Below are positions 2,237 to 8,977 of a stretch of 42,392 nucleotides of DNA, piece after piece. The translations under genes and the position numbers were made by a program. Every line of letters begins with the position of its first letter. Positions within the stretch are counted from its first letter, which is position 1. The DNA is from a bacterium (lineage in GTDB: Bacteria; Patescibacteriota; Minisyncoccia; Phycocordibacterales; UBA1550), in the NCBI GenBank assembly GCA_030649835.1, contig JAUSES010000039.1, forward strand, positions 1 to 42,392. Direction: 5' to 3'. The notes under the pieces are model-generated. The model had not been told where the DNA came from. It made no database searches and worked only from the letters and a program-made list of their open reading frames with translations.

Positions 2237-2854
2237 GTGGCACTTTCAGAAGAAAAACAAATTAAAATAGTAGAGTCATATTGTAAAGATAAACTTTCAA
2301 TTGGACAAATTGTAAGTAAGTTTAAAATGCCAGCTTCAACGGTGGCATATTACCTTAATAAACATAAGGTAAAGATGAGGTCAAGAAGTGAAGCGGTTAC
2401 GACATGGTACATCACTGAGTTTGCTAAAAAACCCTTCGTTCTTAAGAAAAATCTTTCTCAAAGGGAAAAAGCATTGAAGCTTGCAGGTGTGATGCTTTAT
2501 TGGGCAGAGGGAGCAAAGGGCGGTGGCACTGTTAAATTTGTAAACAGTGACCCTGCTATGATAAAACTCTTTATGAGCTTTCTGCGGGTGGTTTGTGGAA
2601 TCTCTGAAAGTAGATTGAAATTGTTGTTACACTTGTATCCAGATCATAACGACAAGGATTTGAGGAAATTTTGGGCTTCTATAACAGGTGTGCCAGAAAG
2701 TAATTTTTATCAATCGTATGTTCATATCGGGAAAACAGGTACTTATAAAAATAAATCAATCTATGGTACACTAGCCGTGAATTATTCTGACAAAAAATTA
2801 TTAACGCAGATAAATTCATGGACAAAAGAGTATCAAAAAATTATGACCTCTTAG
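2237..2854 (+). CDS. HTH protein with LAGLIDADG-like endonuclease domain
   Basis: 205 aa from a GTG start; no good ATG or Shine-Dalgarno lies nearby. Residues 1-50 look like a resolvase/Hin-type helix-turn-helix (QIKIVESYCKDKLSIGQIV followed by ASTVAYYLNKH). From about residue 80, LAGVMLYWAEGAKG and VKFVNSDPAMIKLFMSFL fit the first helix, acidic residue and first strands of a LAGLIDADG homing-endonuclease fold. Such stand-alone proteins are seen in CPR genomes; their function is not established. The gene is AT-richer than its neighbours, and its stop codon lies in a 33-bp direct repeat that includes the 5' end of tRNA-Thr, which suggests transfer or mobility. Confidence 0.7.
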   Translation: MALSEEKQIKIVESYCKDKLSIGQIVSKFKMPASTVAYYLNKHKVKMRSRSEAVTTWYITEFAKKPFVLKKNLSQREKALKLAGVMLYWAEGAKGGGTVKFVNSDPAMIKLFMSFLRVVCGISESRLKLLLHLYPDHNDKDLRKFWASITGVPESNFYQSYVHIGKTGTYKNKSIYGTLAVNYSDKKLLTQINSWTKEYQKIMTS

Positions 2855-2965
2855 TTTGGAATTAAAATATGTGCCATCTTAGCTGTTTTGGTAGGCTCAA
2901 GAGAAGGTTACAAAATGTGCTATCTTGAAGGATAGTTTGGAATTAAAATATGTGCCATCTTAGCT
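2852..2965 (+). repeat. 33-bp direct repeat including tRNA-Thr 5' end
   Basis: Positions 2852-2884 and 2933-2965 are identical over 33 nt: AT-rich upstream sequence plus the first 12 nt of tRNA-Thr. In the first copy the tRNA-like sequence continues (GGTAG is kept) and then decays. A weaker third similarity lies at 2917-2936. This is a tandem duplication, unit 81 bp, between the HTH/LAGLIDADG-like gene and the intact tRNA. Confidence 0.85.
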
Positions 2966-3029
2966 CAGCTGGTAGAGCAACGCACTTGTAATGCGTAGGT
3001 CCCCGGTTCAAATCCGGGAGATGGCTCCA
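2954..3029 (+). tRNA. tRNA-Thr (anticodon UGU)
   Basis: A 76-nt cloverleaf: acceptor GCCATCT/AGATGGC, D arm AGCTCAGCTGGTAGAGC, anticodon stem ACGCA/TGCGT with loop CTTGTAA (anticodon TGT), and T arm CCCGG-TTCAAAT-CCGGG. The 3' CCA is encoded. TAAAAT at 2944-2949 could be its -10 but sits close to the 5' end. Confidence 0.97.
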
Positions 3030-3082
3030 AATAATAAAAGGGGTGGTTCGCAGAGCGAACCACCCCTTTTATTATTTGGAGC
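3024..3082 (+). terminator. 27-bp perfect hairpin overlapping the tRNA-Thr 3' end
   Basis: Arms 3024-3050 and 3056-3082 are perfectly complementary with a 5-nt loop, and the lower stem contains A/T blocks. The first six bases of the left arm (GCTCCA) are the tRNA's own 3' end, so the hairpin and the acceptor stem are mutually exclusive for those bases. A run of T within the right arm makes termination likely. Confidence 0.75.
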
Positions 3083-3355
3083 ATATTTATCATTTCCCCC
3101 AATTTATGTTGATCATATTTAATCCTTTCGTCTTATACGTTTGCTTCGATTTAGCCAATGTAAATGGTATTTCAACCTGAAATTCATATACAAAGCTGTA
3201 ATAAGGTATATACTATATATAAGGAGTTGTATTTGTTCGCTGACCAGCACAAATACAATGATTTCTTCACTTCAGAATTAGAGGAAGCGCGCGATACTTT
3301 TTTATTTAAGTTTTCGGTCACTCTAAACAACATACCTCTTAAAGAGGATCTACAT

Positions 3356-4711
3356 ATGAATATATTCAATAAGGCTTCAACCTCAGCGTTGGCCGTTTCG
3401 ATCGCTCTCACTTTTGTGAGCCCGACTGCGCTCCTTGCTGCTGGGCCTGCAGCTGTTAATTTAGGAACTGCGAGCAACTTCACTGTCCTCGCAAAAACAG
3501 GTATTTCTACAACAGGAACAACTTCAGTTGTGGGTGATATCGGTGTAAGCCCAGCGCAGGCAACATACATTACAGGATTTTCACTAAGCCTTCCTTCGGC
3601 AAGTGCATTTTCAACATCGCCTCTCGTGTCTGGAAAAATATATGCCCCTGGATATGCAGATCCAACTCCTGCAAATTTAACTACCGCTATCGGTGATATG
3701 CAAACCGCATACACAGATGCACAGGGAAGAACAGCGCCTGCTCCGGTAACAGAGCTCGGCGCAGGGAGTATTGGTGGAATGACTCTCGCACCAGGACTCT
3801 ACAAGTGGGGCACGGGTGTCACCATTCCTTCAGACGTTACACTTTCTGGATCTGCTAATGATGTCTGGATTTTCCAAGTAGCGCAAAATCTTGACATTAG
3901 CTCTGCGGCAAAAATAAATTTGAGTGGAGGGGCTCAATCAGGCAATGTGTTCTGGGCAGTTGCAGGTCAGGCAACAATTGGCACCACCGCAGTTTTTAAC
4001 GGAAACATTCTCAGTCAGACTGCGATTGTGTTAAACACCGGCGCGACATTAAATGGTAGAGCTTTGGCACAGACAGCGGTAACGCTTGATTCCAATGTTG
4101 TTTCAGCGGCAGTTGCCTCAACCCCCGCAATCCCAGCTGTTCCCGCTATTCCTGCAGAGCCAACGGTAACCTCCGCTACCCCAGCAACTTCAGCAATACC
4201 AGCTAGTTCAGCATCATCTAATAATAGTGGGGGAAGTGCTGTTTCAGTAGTTGTAACCACAGATGCCGGATGTGTATCAGGAAATAAGTTTAGCACCGTA
4301 ACGGGGAAGAATTGCACCTCTTCGGCCTCAACAAATACACCAGTTGCAATCACCGACGCCGGATGTGTGTCAGGAAATAAATTTAGCACGGTGACTGGTA
4401 AAAATTGTAGCTCATCAACAGGAGCAAATGCTTCTGTGGTGCCACTTTTCGGTGAGCAAACAATCAAGGCGCGCGTTATCACCGCCAACCTTTGGAAGGG
4501 CAATCGTAGTAGCGACGTCGCTGTTCTTCAGAAATATTTGATTTCACAAAACAAAGGACCTGCTGCGCTAGCATTGGCGGCAAACGGCTCTACCACCTAC
4601 TTTGGTGAACTCACCCGTTCTGCGCTAGCAGAGTTCCAAGCCTCGGTGGGGATTAGCCCATCTTCTGGAAACTTTGGAGCAAAGACACGCGCATACATTA
4701 GTTCACATTAG
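3356..4711 (+). CDS. exported DUF3494 (ice-binding-like) protein with peptidoglycan-binding domain
   Basis: 451 aa. The start at 3356 fits best: an AAGAGG Shine-Dalgarno at 3342-3347, a signal peptide (residues 1-29, ending LLAA) and the same MNIFNK-type start as the paralogue at 7565. Residues about 35-250 are a DUF3494 beta-solenoid with the family marks GDIGVSP, ANDVWIFQVA, GNVFWAVAG and FNGNILSQTAI. A Pro/Ala/Ser linker follows, then two Cys-bearing repeats (DAGCVSGNKFSTVTGKNC) and a C-terminal PG_binding_1-like domain (about 370-451). Known members bind ice or act in adhesion; the ligand here is unknown. Export with non-covalent wall binding is the likely fate. Confidence 0.85.
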   Translation: MNIFNKASTSALAVSIALTFVSPTALLAAGPAAVNLGTASNFTVLAKTGISTTGTTSVVGDIGVSPAQATYITGFSLSLPSASAFSTSPLVSGKIYAPGYADPTPANLTTAIGDMQTAYTDAQGRTAPAPVTELGAGSIGGMTLAPGLYKWGTGVTIPSDVTLSGSANDVWIFQVAQNLDISSAAKINLSGGAQSGNVFWAVAGQATIGTTAVFNGNILSQTAIVLNTGATLNGRALAQTAVTLDSNVVSAAVASTPAIPAVPAIPAEPTVTSATPATSAIPASSASSNNSGGSAVSVVVTTDAGCVSGNKFSTVTGKNCTSSASTNTPVAITDAGCVSGNKFSTVTGKNCSSSTGANASVVPLFGEQTIKARVITANLWKGNRSSDVAVLQKYLISQNKGPAALALAANGSTTYFGELTRSALAEFQASVGISPSSGNFGAKTRAYISSH

Positions 4712-4732
4712 AAATAATTAATAATTAACATT

Positions 4733-5077
4733 ATGAAAAAAATTACATTTTGTAAAAAATCTATTGCAGCAACCCTCATCACTGCTTCAATGGTGTTGCT
4801 TTCATCCCCATCCTCCGTGTTTGCAGCAACGTCACCCTCACTTGGTACAGCAGATGGTTTTGCAATTCTTGCTGGATCTGGAATTACTATTGGAGGGGCA
4901 GTAAACACAAGTACAATCACTGGGGATATCGGTTCCTACTCAACGGCAACCATTACAGGGATTGGAAATGCGGTATTGACCGGTACAAACCATGCGGGTG
5001 ATGCTACCACACAGGGAGCAAAGACTGCGCTAACCACAGCATATTTGAACGCTGAGGCACAATACTGCCATCAGTGA
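4733..5077 (+). CDS. DUF3494 surface protein, N-terminal part (frameshifted)
   Basis: 114 aa: a signal peptide (residues 1-32, ending SVFAA) and the first third of a DUF3494 domain (LGTADGFAILAGSGIT, TGDIGSYSTATITG, GAKTALTTAYLNAEAQ). It then stops at TGA 5075-5077. The rest of the same domain continues in another frame from 5074, so this is the front half of one gene broken by a single-base indel near 5055-5075. The stop overlaps the next frame's GTG (GTGA), so coupled translation of a second piece is formally possible. It lies 21 nt after the preceding DUF3494 gene and is probably in one operon with it. Confidence 0.75.
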   Translation: MKKITFCKKSIAATLITASMVLLSSPSSVFAATSPSLGTADGFAILAGSGITIGGAVNTSTITGDIGSYSTATITGIGNAVLTGTNHAGDATTQGAKTALTTAYLNAEAQYCHQ

Positions 5078-6309
5078 CTACTGTTCTTGATAACACAATT
5101 GACTCATTCTCTGGCACTGGGTACACTTTGACACCAGGAATTTACAAATCCCCTGCACAAATGGGAATTACTGGAACCCTTACTCTTAATGGTAGCGCTA
5201 CAGACGTGTGGATTTTCCAGGCTGGCTCAACGCTTACGACAGCGGGAGCAAGCAGCGTGACTCTCACTGGAGGAGCACAAGCATGTAATGTGTTCTGGCA
5301 AGTTGGTAGTTCAGCAACACTCGGCTCAGCATCTTTCCTAAAGGGAAATATCCTTGCATTAACCTCGGCAACGTTAGGAACGACCGCAAACGTTGAAGGT
5401 CGCGTACTTGCACAAAATGGGGCTGTCACGCTTGATGGTTCTAACATCATTACAAAGGCAACGTGTGTGGTACCCCCACCAGCGCCAGCTGCTTCTACGG
5501 GTGGTGGTAGTTCTTTTGCACCTCGTCCACTTATTAATGTTACAAAAATTCCAAGTCCTCTATCGCTTCTTGCAGGTCCTGGACTAGTTACGTATACGTA
5601 TGTAGCAACAAATATTGGTCCTGTTACCATGATTGGTCCATGGGTCAAGGATGACAAATGTAGCCCGGTAACTTATGTTTCAGGCGATACTAACAAAAAT
5701 GGAAAACTTAGCGTTGGCGAAGCATGGACTTATACTTGTTCAAAAATTGTTTCTCAAACAGAGACAAACACAGCGACTGCTCATGGGCAGGCAAATGGTT
5801 GGGATACCTATGACACCGCTAACGCAACTGTCTTTGTAGGGGTACCACTTGCACCGCCATTAATCCACTTGGTAAAAACTCCAAATACGTTTCTCCTTCC
5901 TTTCGGTGGTGGAGCAGTTACGTATTCGTACGCGGTCACAAATCCAGGAACGGCACCGTTGTCTGACGTCAGTATTGTTGATGATAAGTGTACTGGGTTG
6001 CCAGGAAGAGTTTCTGGGCATCCAGGCGATTTAAACAAAAATAATCTTCTAGAAAGCAACGAAACATGGCAATTTACATGCCTTACAAATCTAACGCAGA
6101 CAACAACAAATATTGGGACCGCAGAGGGTCATGCAAATGGCTTGACGGCAATCGATTTTTCTCCAGCGACTGTTGTAGTGAGCCCAGTAAAACTTCCAAA
6201 TACTGGTTTTGCGCCCGAGAATAAGAATTTGCTAAACATTCTTGTCTCAGCGGGAATCGTTGCATTGTTTGCTTCGCTCTATATTGCACGAAGAAAGCGC
6301 GTTATTTAG
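5074..6309 (+). CDS. DUF3494 surface protein, C-terminal part with DUF11-like repeats and LPNTG anchor
   Basis: 411 aa from a GTG overlapping the previous stop. Residues 1-130 complete the DUF3494 domain (LTPGIYKS, ATDVWIFQAGS, GGAQACNVFWQVGSSATLG). Two DUF11-like beta-sandwich repeats follow (about 150-255 and 260-370), each with NKNGKLSVGEAWTYTC-type sequence. The C-terminus is a complete sorting signal: LPNTG at 374-378, a hydrophobic helix, and ARRKRVI. The piece has no signal peptide of its own; that lies in the upstream frame. A sortase is encoded next. With the frame repaired, the product would be a wall-anchored protein of about 525 aa. Confidence 0.8.
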   Translation: MTTVLDNTIDSFSGTGYTLTPGIYKSPAQMGITGTLTLNGSATDVWIFQAGSTLTTAGASSVTLTGGAQACNVFWQVGSSATLGSASFLKGNILALTSATLGTTANVEGRVLAQNGAVTLDGSNIITKATCVVPPPAPAASTGGGSSFAPRPLINVTKIPSPLSLLAGPGLVTYTYVATNIGPVTMIGPWVKDDKCSPVTYVSGDTNKNGKLSVGEAWTYTCSKIVSQTETNTATAHGQANGWDTYDTANATVFVGVPLAPPLIHLVKTPNTFLLPFGGGAVTYSYAVTNPGTAPLSDVSIVDDKCTGLPGRVSGHPGDLNKNNLLESNETWQFTCLTNLTQTTTNIGTAEGHANGLTAIDFSPATVVVSPVKLPNTGFAPENKNLLNILVSAGIVALFASLYIARRKRVI

Positions 6310-6338
6310 AGTTAACACTTAAAAAATAATACGCAAAT

Positions 6339-6371
6339 AAAGACCCTGTTCTTTGCAGGGTCTTTCTCTTA
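6339..6371 (+). terminator. intrinsic terminator after the LPNTG gene
   Basis: A 10-bp stem (AAAGACCCTG with CAGGGTCTTT, 6339-6348 and 6356-6365) is followed by a T/C-rich tract. The sortase gene starts 17 nt downstream, so the sortase is either read through or has its own promoter. Confidence 0.7.
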
Positions 6372-6387
6372 AAAACTCTCACAAATT

Positions 6388-7281
6388 ATGCCAATAAAAT
6401 TCGCAATTAAATATCTCTTTGCAGGGGTCCTCATAACTCTCTTTGTTTTAGTTGCACAACAGGCATTTGCGCAACTAAACCAGCTCACCACTACGCTCTC
6501 TTTGGGAATGCGCGGACAAGAGGTGCTTGACCTGCAGAAATTTCTAAACCTAGACCCTGAAACACAAATCGCTGATGCAGGAGCAGGGTCTGCAGGAAAA
6601 GAAACAAATTATTTTGGTCCTGCAACAAAGCGCGCAGTAGTAAAATTCCAAGAAAAATATAAGGATGAAATTCTGCTTCCTTATGGACTTAAAAAGGGAA
6701 CAGGAGTTTCGGGATTGAAAACTCGTGAGAAAATAAATGCGCTTAGTAGGGAAAAGACAACCCAAAGTAGCGGGGTCACAGAAAAAATTTCTGAGGCACC
6801 GCCAGCAAAGTTGATTCCTAAAGAAGAGACGGGATTATATAACGTGCCTACACGCATTATTATTCCTGATATTAATGTTGATGCAGTAGTGGAAGGAATG
6901 GGAGTTACTCCTCTTGGAGCGATGGATTCTCCAAAAGGCCCGACGACCGCCGGCTGGTTTAATCTCGGCAAACGCCCTGGCGAACAAGGAAGTGCAGTCA
7001 TTAGTGGACATTATGGCTGGAAAAATGGCATACCAGCTGTTTTTGACAATCTAAAAAAATTAAAAACCGGAGACAAAATATATGTAGTGGATGCGCAAGG
7101 TACGACAACTGTTTTCATTGTGAGAGAGTCTCGCCTATATGATCAAAATGCCGATGCCTCAGATGTGTTCATCTCAAGTGATGGAAACGCGCACCTTAAT
7201 CTTATTACGTGTGAGGGAACATGGAATAAGACGGAAAAAAGTTATTCTAACAGGCTTGTGGTTTTTGCAGAAAAAGCATAG
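6388..7281 (+). CDS. sortase with N-terminal peptidoglycan-binding domain
   Basis: 297 aa. It has a signal peptide or membrane anchor (residues 8-28), a PG_binding_1-like domain (about 35-118, with GMRGQEVLDLQKFLNL and YFGPATKRAVVKFQ), a linker, and a sortase domain (about 150-297). The catalytic triad is visible: His208 in SGHYG, Cys275 in LITCEG, Arg289 in SNRLVV. The domain looks most like class F sortases. Sortases cut LPxTG between Thr and Gly and link the protein to a cell-wall nucleophile. The LPNTG protein directly upstream is the obvious substrate. Fusing a wall-binding domain to the sortase is less common. Confidence 0.88.
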   Translation: MPIKFAIKYLFAGVLITLFVLVAQQAFAQLNQLTTTLSLGMRGQEVLDLQKFLNLDPETQIADAGAGSAGKETNYFGPATKRAVVKFQEKYKDEILLPYGLKKGTGVSGLKTREKINALSREKTTQSSGVTEKISEAPPAKLIPKEETGLYNVPTRIIIPDINVDAVVEGMGVTPLGAMDSPKGPTTAGWFNLGKRPGEQGSAVISGHYGWKNGIPAVFDNLKKLKTGDKIYVVDAQGTTTVFIVRESRLYDQNADASDVFISSDGNAHLNLITCEGTWNKTEKSYSNRLVVFAEKA

Positions 7282-7283
7282 CC

Positions 7284-7345
7284 CACGAAAATCCCCCTAA
7301 AACAAAACCGCTTAAAGCGGTTTTTGTTTTTGGTGGATTTTCGTG
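7284..7345 (+). terminator. double-stem terminator after the sortase gene
   Basis: An outer 11-bp stem (7284-7294 with 7335-7345) encloses an inner terminator (AAAACCGCTT/AAAGCGGTTTT, 7304-7324, with T-run). Sequence from 7335 onward recurs at 9306-9347. Confidence 0.75.
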
Positions 7346-7564
7346 TAAACCCGCACGCCTACTTTTGTATTATTGCAGTTTGTTTCTAGAAACTAATACC
7401 GAAAAATTTTGGAGATGAGATGAAATTCGTTTTTTGCAGTTATTCAGGAATGGCCTGAAAAGCACACGGAGGCGTGTTTTTTACTGCCAGAAGTAATGTA
7501 AACATTGAAGGATCACAACGTCTTCTGTTGTGAGGTCCTAATTCTAAATAAGCAATAAAAATAT
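7346..7564 (+). promoter_or_regulatory. 219-nt leader with several small hairpins, before the third DUF3494 gene
   Basis: No gene is seen here. It contains a hairpin TTCAGG/CCTGAA (7443-7459), a GCACACGGAGGCGTGT hairpin followed by T6 (about 7460-7481), and an AGGATCACAAC/GTTGTGAGGTCCT hairpin (7509-7540). The second resembles a terminator, so the leader could be attenuated. No known riboswitch class was recognised. Confidence 0.35.
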
Positions 7565-8977
7565 ATGAAAATATTCAACAAGGTTTCTGTAGCTGTGCTT
7601 CTTAGCTCATTCGCCATTGCTTCATTTGGCATTACTACTGCCATCGCGGCAGGTCCAGCAGGAATAAATTTAGGGACAGCAGGAGATTATGCAATTTTGT
7701 CTAAAACAGGTATATCCACAACAGGAACAACTAAGGTTGTTGGAGACATGGGTGTTAGCCCAATCGCAGCGAGTGCGATAACAGGATTTTCTCTGACTCT
7801 TCCTTCGGCAAGTGCGTTTTCCACATCTGCCTTAGTAACAGGAAATGTTTACGCTCCAGATTACGCAAGTCCAACTCCAATAAATCTAACCACTGCTATT
7901 GGTGATATGCAAACAGCATATACCGATGGAGCAGGAAGGTCAGACTACACGGCAACCGAGCTCGGTGCTGGAAATATTGGTGGTCTAACAATCGTTCCTG
8001 GTTTATACAAATGGGGAACCGGTGTATTGGTTCCAACAAATGTAACCCTTTCAGGAGGGGCAAATGATGTTTGGATTTTCCAGATAGCACAAAACTTAAA
8101 TGTTAGTTCAGATGTTCAAATTATATTGGCAGGTGGCGCACAAGCAAGTAATGTCTATTGGATTGTCGCAGGACAAACCACTGTAGGCACAAGTGCAATA
8201 TTCAATGGAAATATTTTGGACGAAACCGCAATTGTGTTTAATACTGGTTCAACATTGAACGGTAGAGCATTGGCTCAAACAGCGGTAATATTGGACGCAA
8301 CCGCAGTTACAAAGCCATCTAGCACTACAGGCAATCCGAGCTTTGCTACGTCGCAGGGTGCAAGCACTAGCACTGTCACCGTTGCCCAGGCCATCAATAT
8401 AAATTCGATCGTCACCAACAACGGATCTTCCGTGGGAAGTATAATCGTTGATGTAGAAGTATATAATTCCTCAAATCAAAAGGTTTTCCAAAAATTTTAT
8501 GAACTACAAAATTTTGAACAGGGGCAGACCCAAACCTATAACACAAGCTTTATCCCGAGCGCAGTCGGAAGCTACACCGTAAAAATTGGAATCTTTAACT
8601 ACAATTGGTCACAAAATTATCTCTGGGTGGACAATGCGCTAGGTATTCAGGTTGGAGGCTCTACACCAACCATTGGACGTCAAATTGACATATGGTGGCC
8701 AACTCAGGGCGCAAATATAGGGGGGAGCCACATGCCCTTCAAAGGTCTTTTAAGAGATACAGACGTTAATGATTATGATATGCATTGGCAAGTAGACGGT
8801 GGTCAACTTGTAAACATACCTACCAACTATACAGATTACCCTCACAAGCAATTTGATGTTGACTTGACTAACTGGACATGGAGAGGAACAGGGCCATACC
8901 ATTTGAACTTTATTGCCAAGGATAGAAGTGGAAACGTTCTCAGCCAACAATCAATTGACGTAACCGTGTGGCACTGA
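7565..8977 (+). CDS. exported DUF3494 (ice-binding-like) protein with C-terminal Ig-like domains
   Basis: 470 aa: a signal peptide (1-29, ending AIAA) and a DUF3494 domain (about 30-255) close to the protein at 3356 even at DNA level (for example the block around FSLTLPSASAFSTS). The two are therefore recent paralogues in the shared domain. The C-terminus differs: about 265-365 is a beta-sandwich segment (YTVKIGIFNYNWSQNYLWVD) and about 370-470 an Ig-like module starting IDIWWPTQGANIGG. No Cys repeats, peptidoglycan-binding domain or LPxTG are present, so it is probably secreted or held by its own binding modules. No Shine-Dalgarno is evident. Confidence 0.85.
   Translation: MKIFNKVSVAVLLSSFAIASFGITTAIAAGPAGINLGTAGDYAILSKTGISTTGTTKVVGDMGVSPIAASAITGFSLTLPSASAFSTSALVTGNVYAPDYASPTPINLTTAIGDMQTAYTDGAGRSDYTATELGAGNIGGLTIVPGLYKWGTGVLVPTNVTLSGGANDVWIFQIAQNLNVSSDVQIILAGGAQASNVYWIVAGQTTVGTSAIFNGNILDETAIVFNTGSTLNGRALAQTAVILDATAVTKPSSTTGNPSFATSQGASTSTVTVAQAININSIVTNNGSSVGSIIVDVEVYNSSNQKVFQKFYELQNFEQGQTQTYNTSFIPSAVGSYTVKIGIFNYNWSQNYLWVDNALGIQVGGSTPTIGRQIDIWWPTQGANIGGSHMPFKGLLRDTDVNDYDMHWQVDGGQLVNIPTNYTDYPHKQFDVDLTNWTWRGTGPYHLNFIAKDRSGNVLSQQSIDVTVWH

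Follow-up and report, generated by a model that had tools for sequence, protein, structure and literature searches.

What does a gene do when it runs into a partial copy of the tRNA gene beside it, and is that copy the scar of its arrival? The question is raised by a locus in the window analysed here (the whole stretch of 42,392 nucleotides, one contig of a small Patescibacteria genome of 1.06 Mb). An ORF of 205 amino acids with a GTG start (2237–2854, forward strand, like all features below) lies downstream of the genes for ribosomal protein S2, EF-Ts (tsf, 1123–1713) and a conserved protein (1801–2193) with a weak DUF2127 match, below the cut-off. It is followed by an intact tRNA-Thr(TGT) gene without intron (2954–3029, 73.2 bits to RF00005), within whose 3′ end starts a terminator-like perfect 28-nt inverted repeat (3024–3082, arms 3024–3051 and 3055–3082). 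From the ORF call, Pfam, the predicted structure, tRNA linkage and the protein tree, we propose that the ORF encodes a homing endonuclease of the free-standing type, directed at the tRNA-Thr(TGT) gene. Immediately beyond the tRNA (3164–8974) come a sortase gene and, around it, three ORFs with ice-binding-like domains.

A repeat search identified two copies of a 43-nt sequence at the end of the ORF and at the tRNA (2852–2894 and 2933–2975, 91% identity), of which 33 nt are identical (2852–2884 and 2933–2965); an exact repeat of 33 nt at a spacing of 81 bp is not chance. The second copy comprises the leader and the true 5′ end of tRNA-Thr, while the first consists of 21 nt of leader and nucleotides 1–12 of the tRNA (2873–2884), followed by GTTTTGGTAGG (2885–2895), a motif that recurs upstream of tRNAs across the order. 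This pseudo tRNA head (2873–2895) is the point after which the two copies diverge. The repeat with tRNA upstream sequence and the first 12 tRNA bases, and its decay past the head in the first copy, had both been noticed in the preliminary description of this DNA and are confirmed here. The ORF lies outside, and not between, the two copies, its stop codon TAG (the first three bases of copy one) being the sole overlap. A tandem repeat search found nothing.

Predicted structure of the protein

The protein has no convincing whole-length match in Pfam, PHROGs or NCBIfam, where only HTH-type models come near. Most of 28 aligned relatives have an N-terminal HTH, which is matched by Pfam HTH_23 in 13 and by the resolvase HTH_7 in seven, which bears out the resolvase-like HTH that had been read from the sequence at the outset. 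Pfam LAGLIDADG models gave no sequence match for the window protein or the 28 family members, and a profile search of the PDB reached I-DmoI at E 0.05. In the AF2 model (pLDDT 92.4, pTM 0.74) the N-terminal HTH is accompanied by one alpha-beta-beta-alpha-beta-beta-alpha unit. The best seven VIA rows were three homing-endonuclease inteins and four I-DmoI entries (Z 8.5 to 6.4, 82–91 residues), the next unrelated row standing at Z 6.0. Foldseek alone put OmpA-like domains at the top of its list, at poor TM-scores of about 0.3, and was set aside as offering no useful match; the fold call therefore rests on VIA, the I-DmoI profile match and the motif. This motif, LYW(A/G)EG, is present in most of 161 distinct family proteins (see below), with the E kept in 158 of them and the W of FWAS in all 161. 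The acidic residue expected where the LAGLIDADG helix ends is present as the E of YWAEG, and LYxAEG aligns with the same motif in a LAGLIDADG_3 ORF of the same genome, profile comparison with the two classic LAGLIDADG ORFs of that genome being weak (probability 2.5 and 0.1). The LAGLIDADG-like core of the preliminary description is thus supported by the predicted structure, though without a Pfam LAGLIDADG sequence match, and we assign the modelled core to the LAGLIDADG fold. Having only one LAGLIDADG unit, the protein is probably dimeric.

Linkage of the family to tRNA genes

Relatives were gathered by protein similarity alone, which gave six in the same genome, six more in sister genomes and 25 in named genome contigs; a family profile search then matched 101 of 379 genomes of the phylum, the loci read being those among the 100 matches listed. 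The named records with relatives were mostly Patescibacteria, with two Omnitrophota. The resulting linkage set comprised 170 family ORFs in 167 loci, and in 135 of these 170 a same-strand tRNA starts within 150 nt of the stop codon, many of them overlapping it. The gap between ORF and tRNA (n = 135) is negative in 64 cases, i.e. the stop codon lies inside the tRNA, 0–14 nt in 51, 15–49 nt in 14 and 50–150 nt in six, with a median of 0 nt. As a control, other ORFs of 150 amino acids or more in the flanks of loci L044–L068 have a tRNA so placed in only 12 of 196 cases.

After removal of nine ORFs (identical, shorter than 150 amino acids or containing X), 161 distinct proteins remained. A tRNA lies directly downstream on the same strand in 142 of them, 129 with an intact tRNA, placing these ORFs outside introns and beside the tRNA gene, and 13 with an intron-split one. 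The remaining 19 comprise five facing an intron-split tRNA, six divergent, two convergent and six without an assigned arrangement, among them L047, entered there under a gap limit of 60 and yet carrying an intron-split tRNA-Tyr. Intron-split tRNAs escape ARAGORN, which accounts for most of the apparent exceptions. The tRNA-unlinked family ORFs (L008, L053, L194, L251, L275) stay in the counts, and L067 and L045 (in its first half) are incomplete because of a contig end or masked bases. Linkage of homologues to tRNA genes, the check that had been suggested for this locus, is therefore found at the 3′ end of the gene in 142 of 161 proteins, and makes the tRNA the putative target of the family.

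The Gly-linked relative in the same genome (L003; G000 C74, about 1880–1970) ends in a tRNA-Gly head followed by an inverted copy of that head, 65 nt before tRNA-Gly, and the Gly-linked ORF in G009, G010 and G001 runs straight into the tRNA. We also searched phages, plasmids and viral contigs and found no relatives, so that a carrier has not been seen there, and the idea of a mobile carrier of the gene was rejected.

Occupied and empty sites

The EF-Ts gene served as anchor for locating empty sites, with the conserved left neighbour marking the orthologous position. EF-Ts was found in 15 of the 16 genomes of the family and 14 sister sites were read, none of which has the window gene (0/14), i.e. 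the site is empty of it in 14 of 14. Between the left neighbour and tRNA-Thr lie 8–238 nt in 13 sister sites, 443 nt in G001 and 760 nt in the window. The G001 site holds a GIY-YIG ORF instead (PF01541, 8.6e-9), whose stop codon is within the tRNA. Two classic LAGLIDADG_3 ORFs of the window's own genome stop 4 nt short of tRNA-Gln(CTG) and 9 nt short of tRNA-Leu(GAG), and among 30 loci with relatives of the GIY-YIG protein, small ORFs of Patescibacteria (L313–L342), 19 show a tRNA immediately after the ORF. With GIY-YIG, LAGLIDADG_3 and HTH-LAGLIDADG genes all at tRNA 5′ borders, this border is a niche common to unrelated nuclease genes.

Protein tree, tRNA identity and host

A FastTree phylogeny of the 161 proteins carries known tRNA labels on 155 leaves (23 labels). 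These labels require 34 changes on the tree, compared with a mean of 122.6 and a minimum of 115 in 200 shuffles. Host family (137 leaves, 58 families) requires 119 changes against a shuffled mean of 119.5, a test whose power is limited by how few members many of the families have. Where several proteins share a label, they come from a wide range of host families or records (for instance Gly-GCC 15, Ile-TAT 15, Gln-TTG 13). The protein tree tracks tRNA identity without host-family signal, within the limited power of the host test, and this lack of host signal, together with the occupied and empty sites, fits horizontal spread of the family.

tRNA-head repeats are a separate feature

The pattern TAGCTGTTTTGGTAGG is found in 24 of 148 genomes of the order, and in 28 of the 30 loci read (L103–L132) it lies within 200 nt upstream of a same-strand tRNA, representing 27 distinct arrays with 36 copies. 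The first 7 nt of the array's own tRNA are reproduced exactly in 23 of these 36 copies, against six of 921 comparisons with the tRNAs of other arrays. Such head arrays (own first 7 nt followed by TAGCTGTTTTGGTAGG) have up to four units and precede Thr, Val, Lys, Ala, Met and Phe tRNAs. When own-head copies were defined by at least 12 of 14 nt at 20–200 nt upstream of the tRNA, they occurred in this genus at 10 of 80 unlinked tRNAs (control 2/800) and at one of ten linked ones, the window itself; in other genomes, they were found at none of 121 linked tRNAs and at seven of 150 unlinked ones (control 29/1,500). The contrast between the 0/121 elsewhere and the 10/80 in the genus indicates that head copies do not come from the window gene.

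The preliminary description had suggested insertion or homing at the tRNA with the duplicated head as target-duplication scar. Linkage (142/161) and empty sites (14/14) favour the first part; the second is rejected, given the 121 linked tRNAs lacking a copy and the gene-less sister sites that still have a tRNA-head piece (G010, G012, G004 with 12 of 12 nt, and G008 with two such copies), a finding that the description had itself named as refuting it. A reading in which insertion by the protein itself produced this duplication can appeal to a real 33-nt repeat beside the gene and to the Gly-linked relative L003, which also ends in a short head copy 65 nt before its tRNA; we give it hardly any weight, as the gene does not sit between the copies, as would an element bounded by a duplicated target, and no head 5′ of the family ORFs was found above control level. 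The last result is also the reason for rejecting a cassette model with the gene between pseudo head and real tRNA.

The head copies are therefore a separate order-wide feature, distinct from the proposed homing gene. They could have arisen by slippage, or as scars left where cuts by other tRNA-cutting enzymes were repaired, or they could serve as functional elements of the leader. The head copy pairs with the 3′ strand of the tRNA when folded at minimum energy, but overall stability is ordinary (z −1.23), which makes a leader-RNA role of the head copies no more than a candidate. Three sister tRNA-Thr leaders (L070, L074, L080) contain longer pseudo-tRNAs; in place of the real TTTTGTAAA, their anticodon loop has a sequence similar to its reverse complement, TTTACAAAA. 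In the window's own genome, tRNA-Pro(TGG) (C74:36443), tRNA-Glu(CTC) (C8:32003) and tRNA-Lys(TTT) (C16:272) are preceded by copies of tRNA 5′ halves in which hairpin-like inserts interrupt the D-loop region.

Group I introns in linked tRNAs

Twenty loci had suspected intron-split tRNAs, and cmscan placed a group I intron above the Rfam cut-off in 13 of them. In eight of the 13 the split tRNA begins where the ORF ends, and in five the ORF faces the 5′ end of a tRNA that looks like fMet, a naming done by eye. The introns of L242, L291, L297, L302 and L304 were called by ARAGORN alone, L242 and L297 having no group I match by cmscan. L218 had no match in the first cmscan and was above the cut-off in a phylum-wide intron search, so that at least 14 of 161 proteins (the 13 loci and L218) have a group I intron in the linked tRNA; the window tRNA has none.

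For comparison, the phylum background is at most 62 group I introns above the cut-off in 145 genomes (62/145 genomes at E 0.001, 45 above the cut-off; loci L343–L372 read). Even if all 62 were in tRNAs, they would affect about 1% of roughly 5,800 tRNA genes, a number that assumes 40 per genome as found in the window's own genome. Among the 30 intron loci read, ARAGORN places 13 in tRNAs, some doubtfully; only four have a family ORF (L345, L355, L357, L366), in two of them at the 5′ border (L355, L357), and two others (L349, L360) have there an ORF that looks GIY-YIG-like by eye. The enrichment of introns at linked tRNAs fits collaborative homing, without proving a common target.

Tests for co-conversion

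Of the first 45 nt of the window tRNA-Thr, 43 agree with the tRNA of a Moranbacteria locus that bears a relative (L044). In the 3′ half the agreement is 19 of 28 nt, against up to 26 for relatives from the order. The window tRNA looks chimeric, with the anticodon arm as in the Moranbacteria tRNA and the 3′ half as in its own order. This is what co-conversion would give, and the comparison is only suggestive because the sister genome G010 has the same head without such a gene. Across the family, similarity between proteins was unrelated to similarity of the tRNA acceptor, D and anticodon parts (rho about 0), and for the T-arm rho was 0.12, a value reached by eight of 300 permutations; co-conversion as a general rule was not supported by this comparison.

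Proposed mechanism and alternative explanations

We consider it likely that this is a homing endonuclease gene, free-standing and intron-less, and that the lineages of its family are each dedicated to one tRNA gene. In such a mechanism, the resolvase-like HTH and the LAGLIDADG domain would bind and cleave the tRNA gene, or else its 5′ border, and repair from the gene-bearing copy would set the gene against the tRNA 5′ end with the tRNA unharmed. Since stop codons fall inside the tRNA, the right border of the gene is the tRNA itself, so that insertion would leave the tRNA intact and loss of the gene would be tied to risk for an essential gene. An intact tRNA in a gene-bearing genome means that some self-protection must be assumed; our guess is that insertion splits a target spanning the tRNA 5′ border.

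An HTH domain, a same-strand location at the tRNA 5′ end and the fidelity of each lineage to its tRNA are also what one would see if the protein were a LAGLIDADG DNA-binding protein domesticated as a regulator, a role of the kind proposed for WhiA, its HTH and core binding near the tRNA 5′ end and controlling transcription of its own tRNA. We find this unlikely, given the patchy presence of the gene (101 of 379 genomes, none of 14 sister sites), an acidic motif residue kept in 158 of 161 proteins and an unrelated nuclease family occupying the same place; moreover, in 64 of 135 cases the ORF runs into the tRNA, leaving no separate leader there. The occurrence of unrelated families (GIY-YIG, LAGLIDADG_3) at the same place could also mean that a larger mobile unit carries the gene along and uses tRNA 5′ ends as a safe harbour, with an enzyme not specific for tRNA. 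Yet fidelity of a lineage to one tRNA needs specificity, and an ORF abutting the tRNA leaves no room between them for a companion gene, which makes the passenger reading most improbable. Finally, group I introns in linked tRNAs would be accounted for by a maturase or splicing helper of such introns, the intron-less cases being leftovers. With 147 of 161 proteins lacking a confirmed intron in the linked tRNA, and a family ORF in only four of the 30 intron loci read, this role seems very unlikely, and free-standing homing into tRNA gene borders stays the reading that we favour.

Relation to known systems and implications

No description of this family was found in the open PMC literature, which leaves out most subscription journals. 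A tRNA-fMet intron enzyme is reportedly intron-encoded and aimed at a tRNA gene. It shares this kind of target with the window family, five loci of which face an intron-split tRNA that by eye looks like fMet, but the family lies outside the tRNA and mostly occurs without an intron.

Closer in taxonomy is I-ShaI, a LAGLIDADG enzyme of a CPR rRNA intron that cuts its own insertion site and forms dimers (Tsurumaki et al. 2024, PMC11270868). Such enzymes resemble the window family in that they have a single LAGLIDADG domain, occur in the same bacteria and are associated with structural RNA genes. They sit inside rRNA introns, whereas members of the window family lie outside introns, carry an HTH at the N-terminus, adjoin the 5′ ends of tRNAs and go unmatched by Pfam LAGLIDADG models. 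SegB of phage T4, a GIY-YIG enzyme, is inserted between tRNA-Arg and tRNA-Ile and has the tRNA intergenic region as target (PMC2988022). It is likewise a free-standing homing endonuclease in a tRNA gene region, but one of another fold and a single phage-borne case, whereas the bacterial genomes here contain numerous lineages, each tied to a tRNA of its own. Collaborative homing, in which a free-standing endonuclease gene and an ORF-less group I intron share one target gene, is described for phages in a review (PMC3984707), while here it would concern tRNA genes of Patescibacteria, as a candidate pairing. Group I introns in CPR tRNAs were already known (PMC8172020).

A wider, tentative scenario, which we regard as possible though doubtful, is a homing system spanning the tRNA genes of Patescibacteria. 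HTH-LAGLIDADG, LAGLIDADG_3 and GIY-YIG lineages specialised on single tRNA genes would cut these essential genes in recipients and transfer 5′ halves of tRNAs, as well as group I introns, from one species to another, and the head arrays of the order would be repair scars from enzymes since lost. The head arrays are in any case a second feature of the tRNA leaders in the order. If our reading of the family is correct, it would explain many nameless, easily misread Patescibacteria ORFs that run into tRNA genes. The homing lineages would cover more than 20 anticodons, giving a natural collection of enzymes whose tRNA-gene specificities are graded, and would provide a bacterial setting for direct tests of collaborative homing of group I introns into tRNAs.
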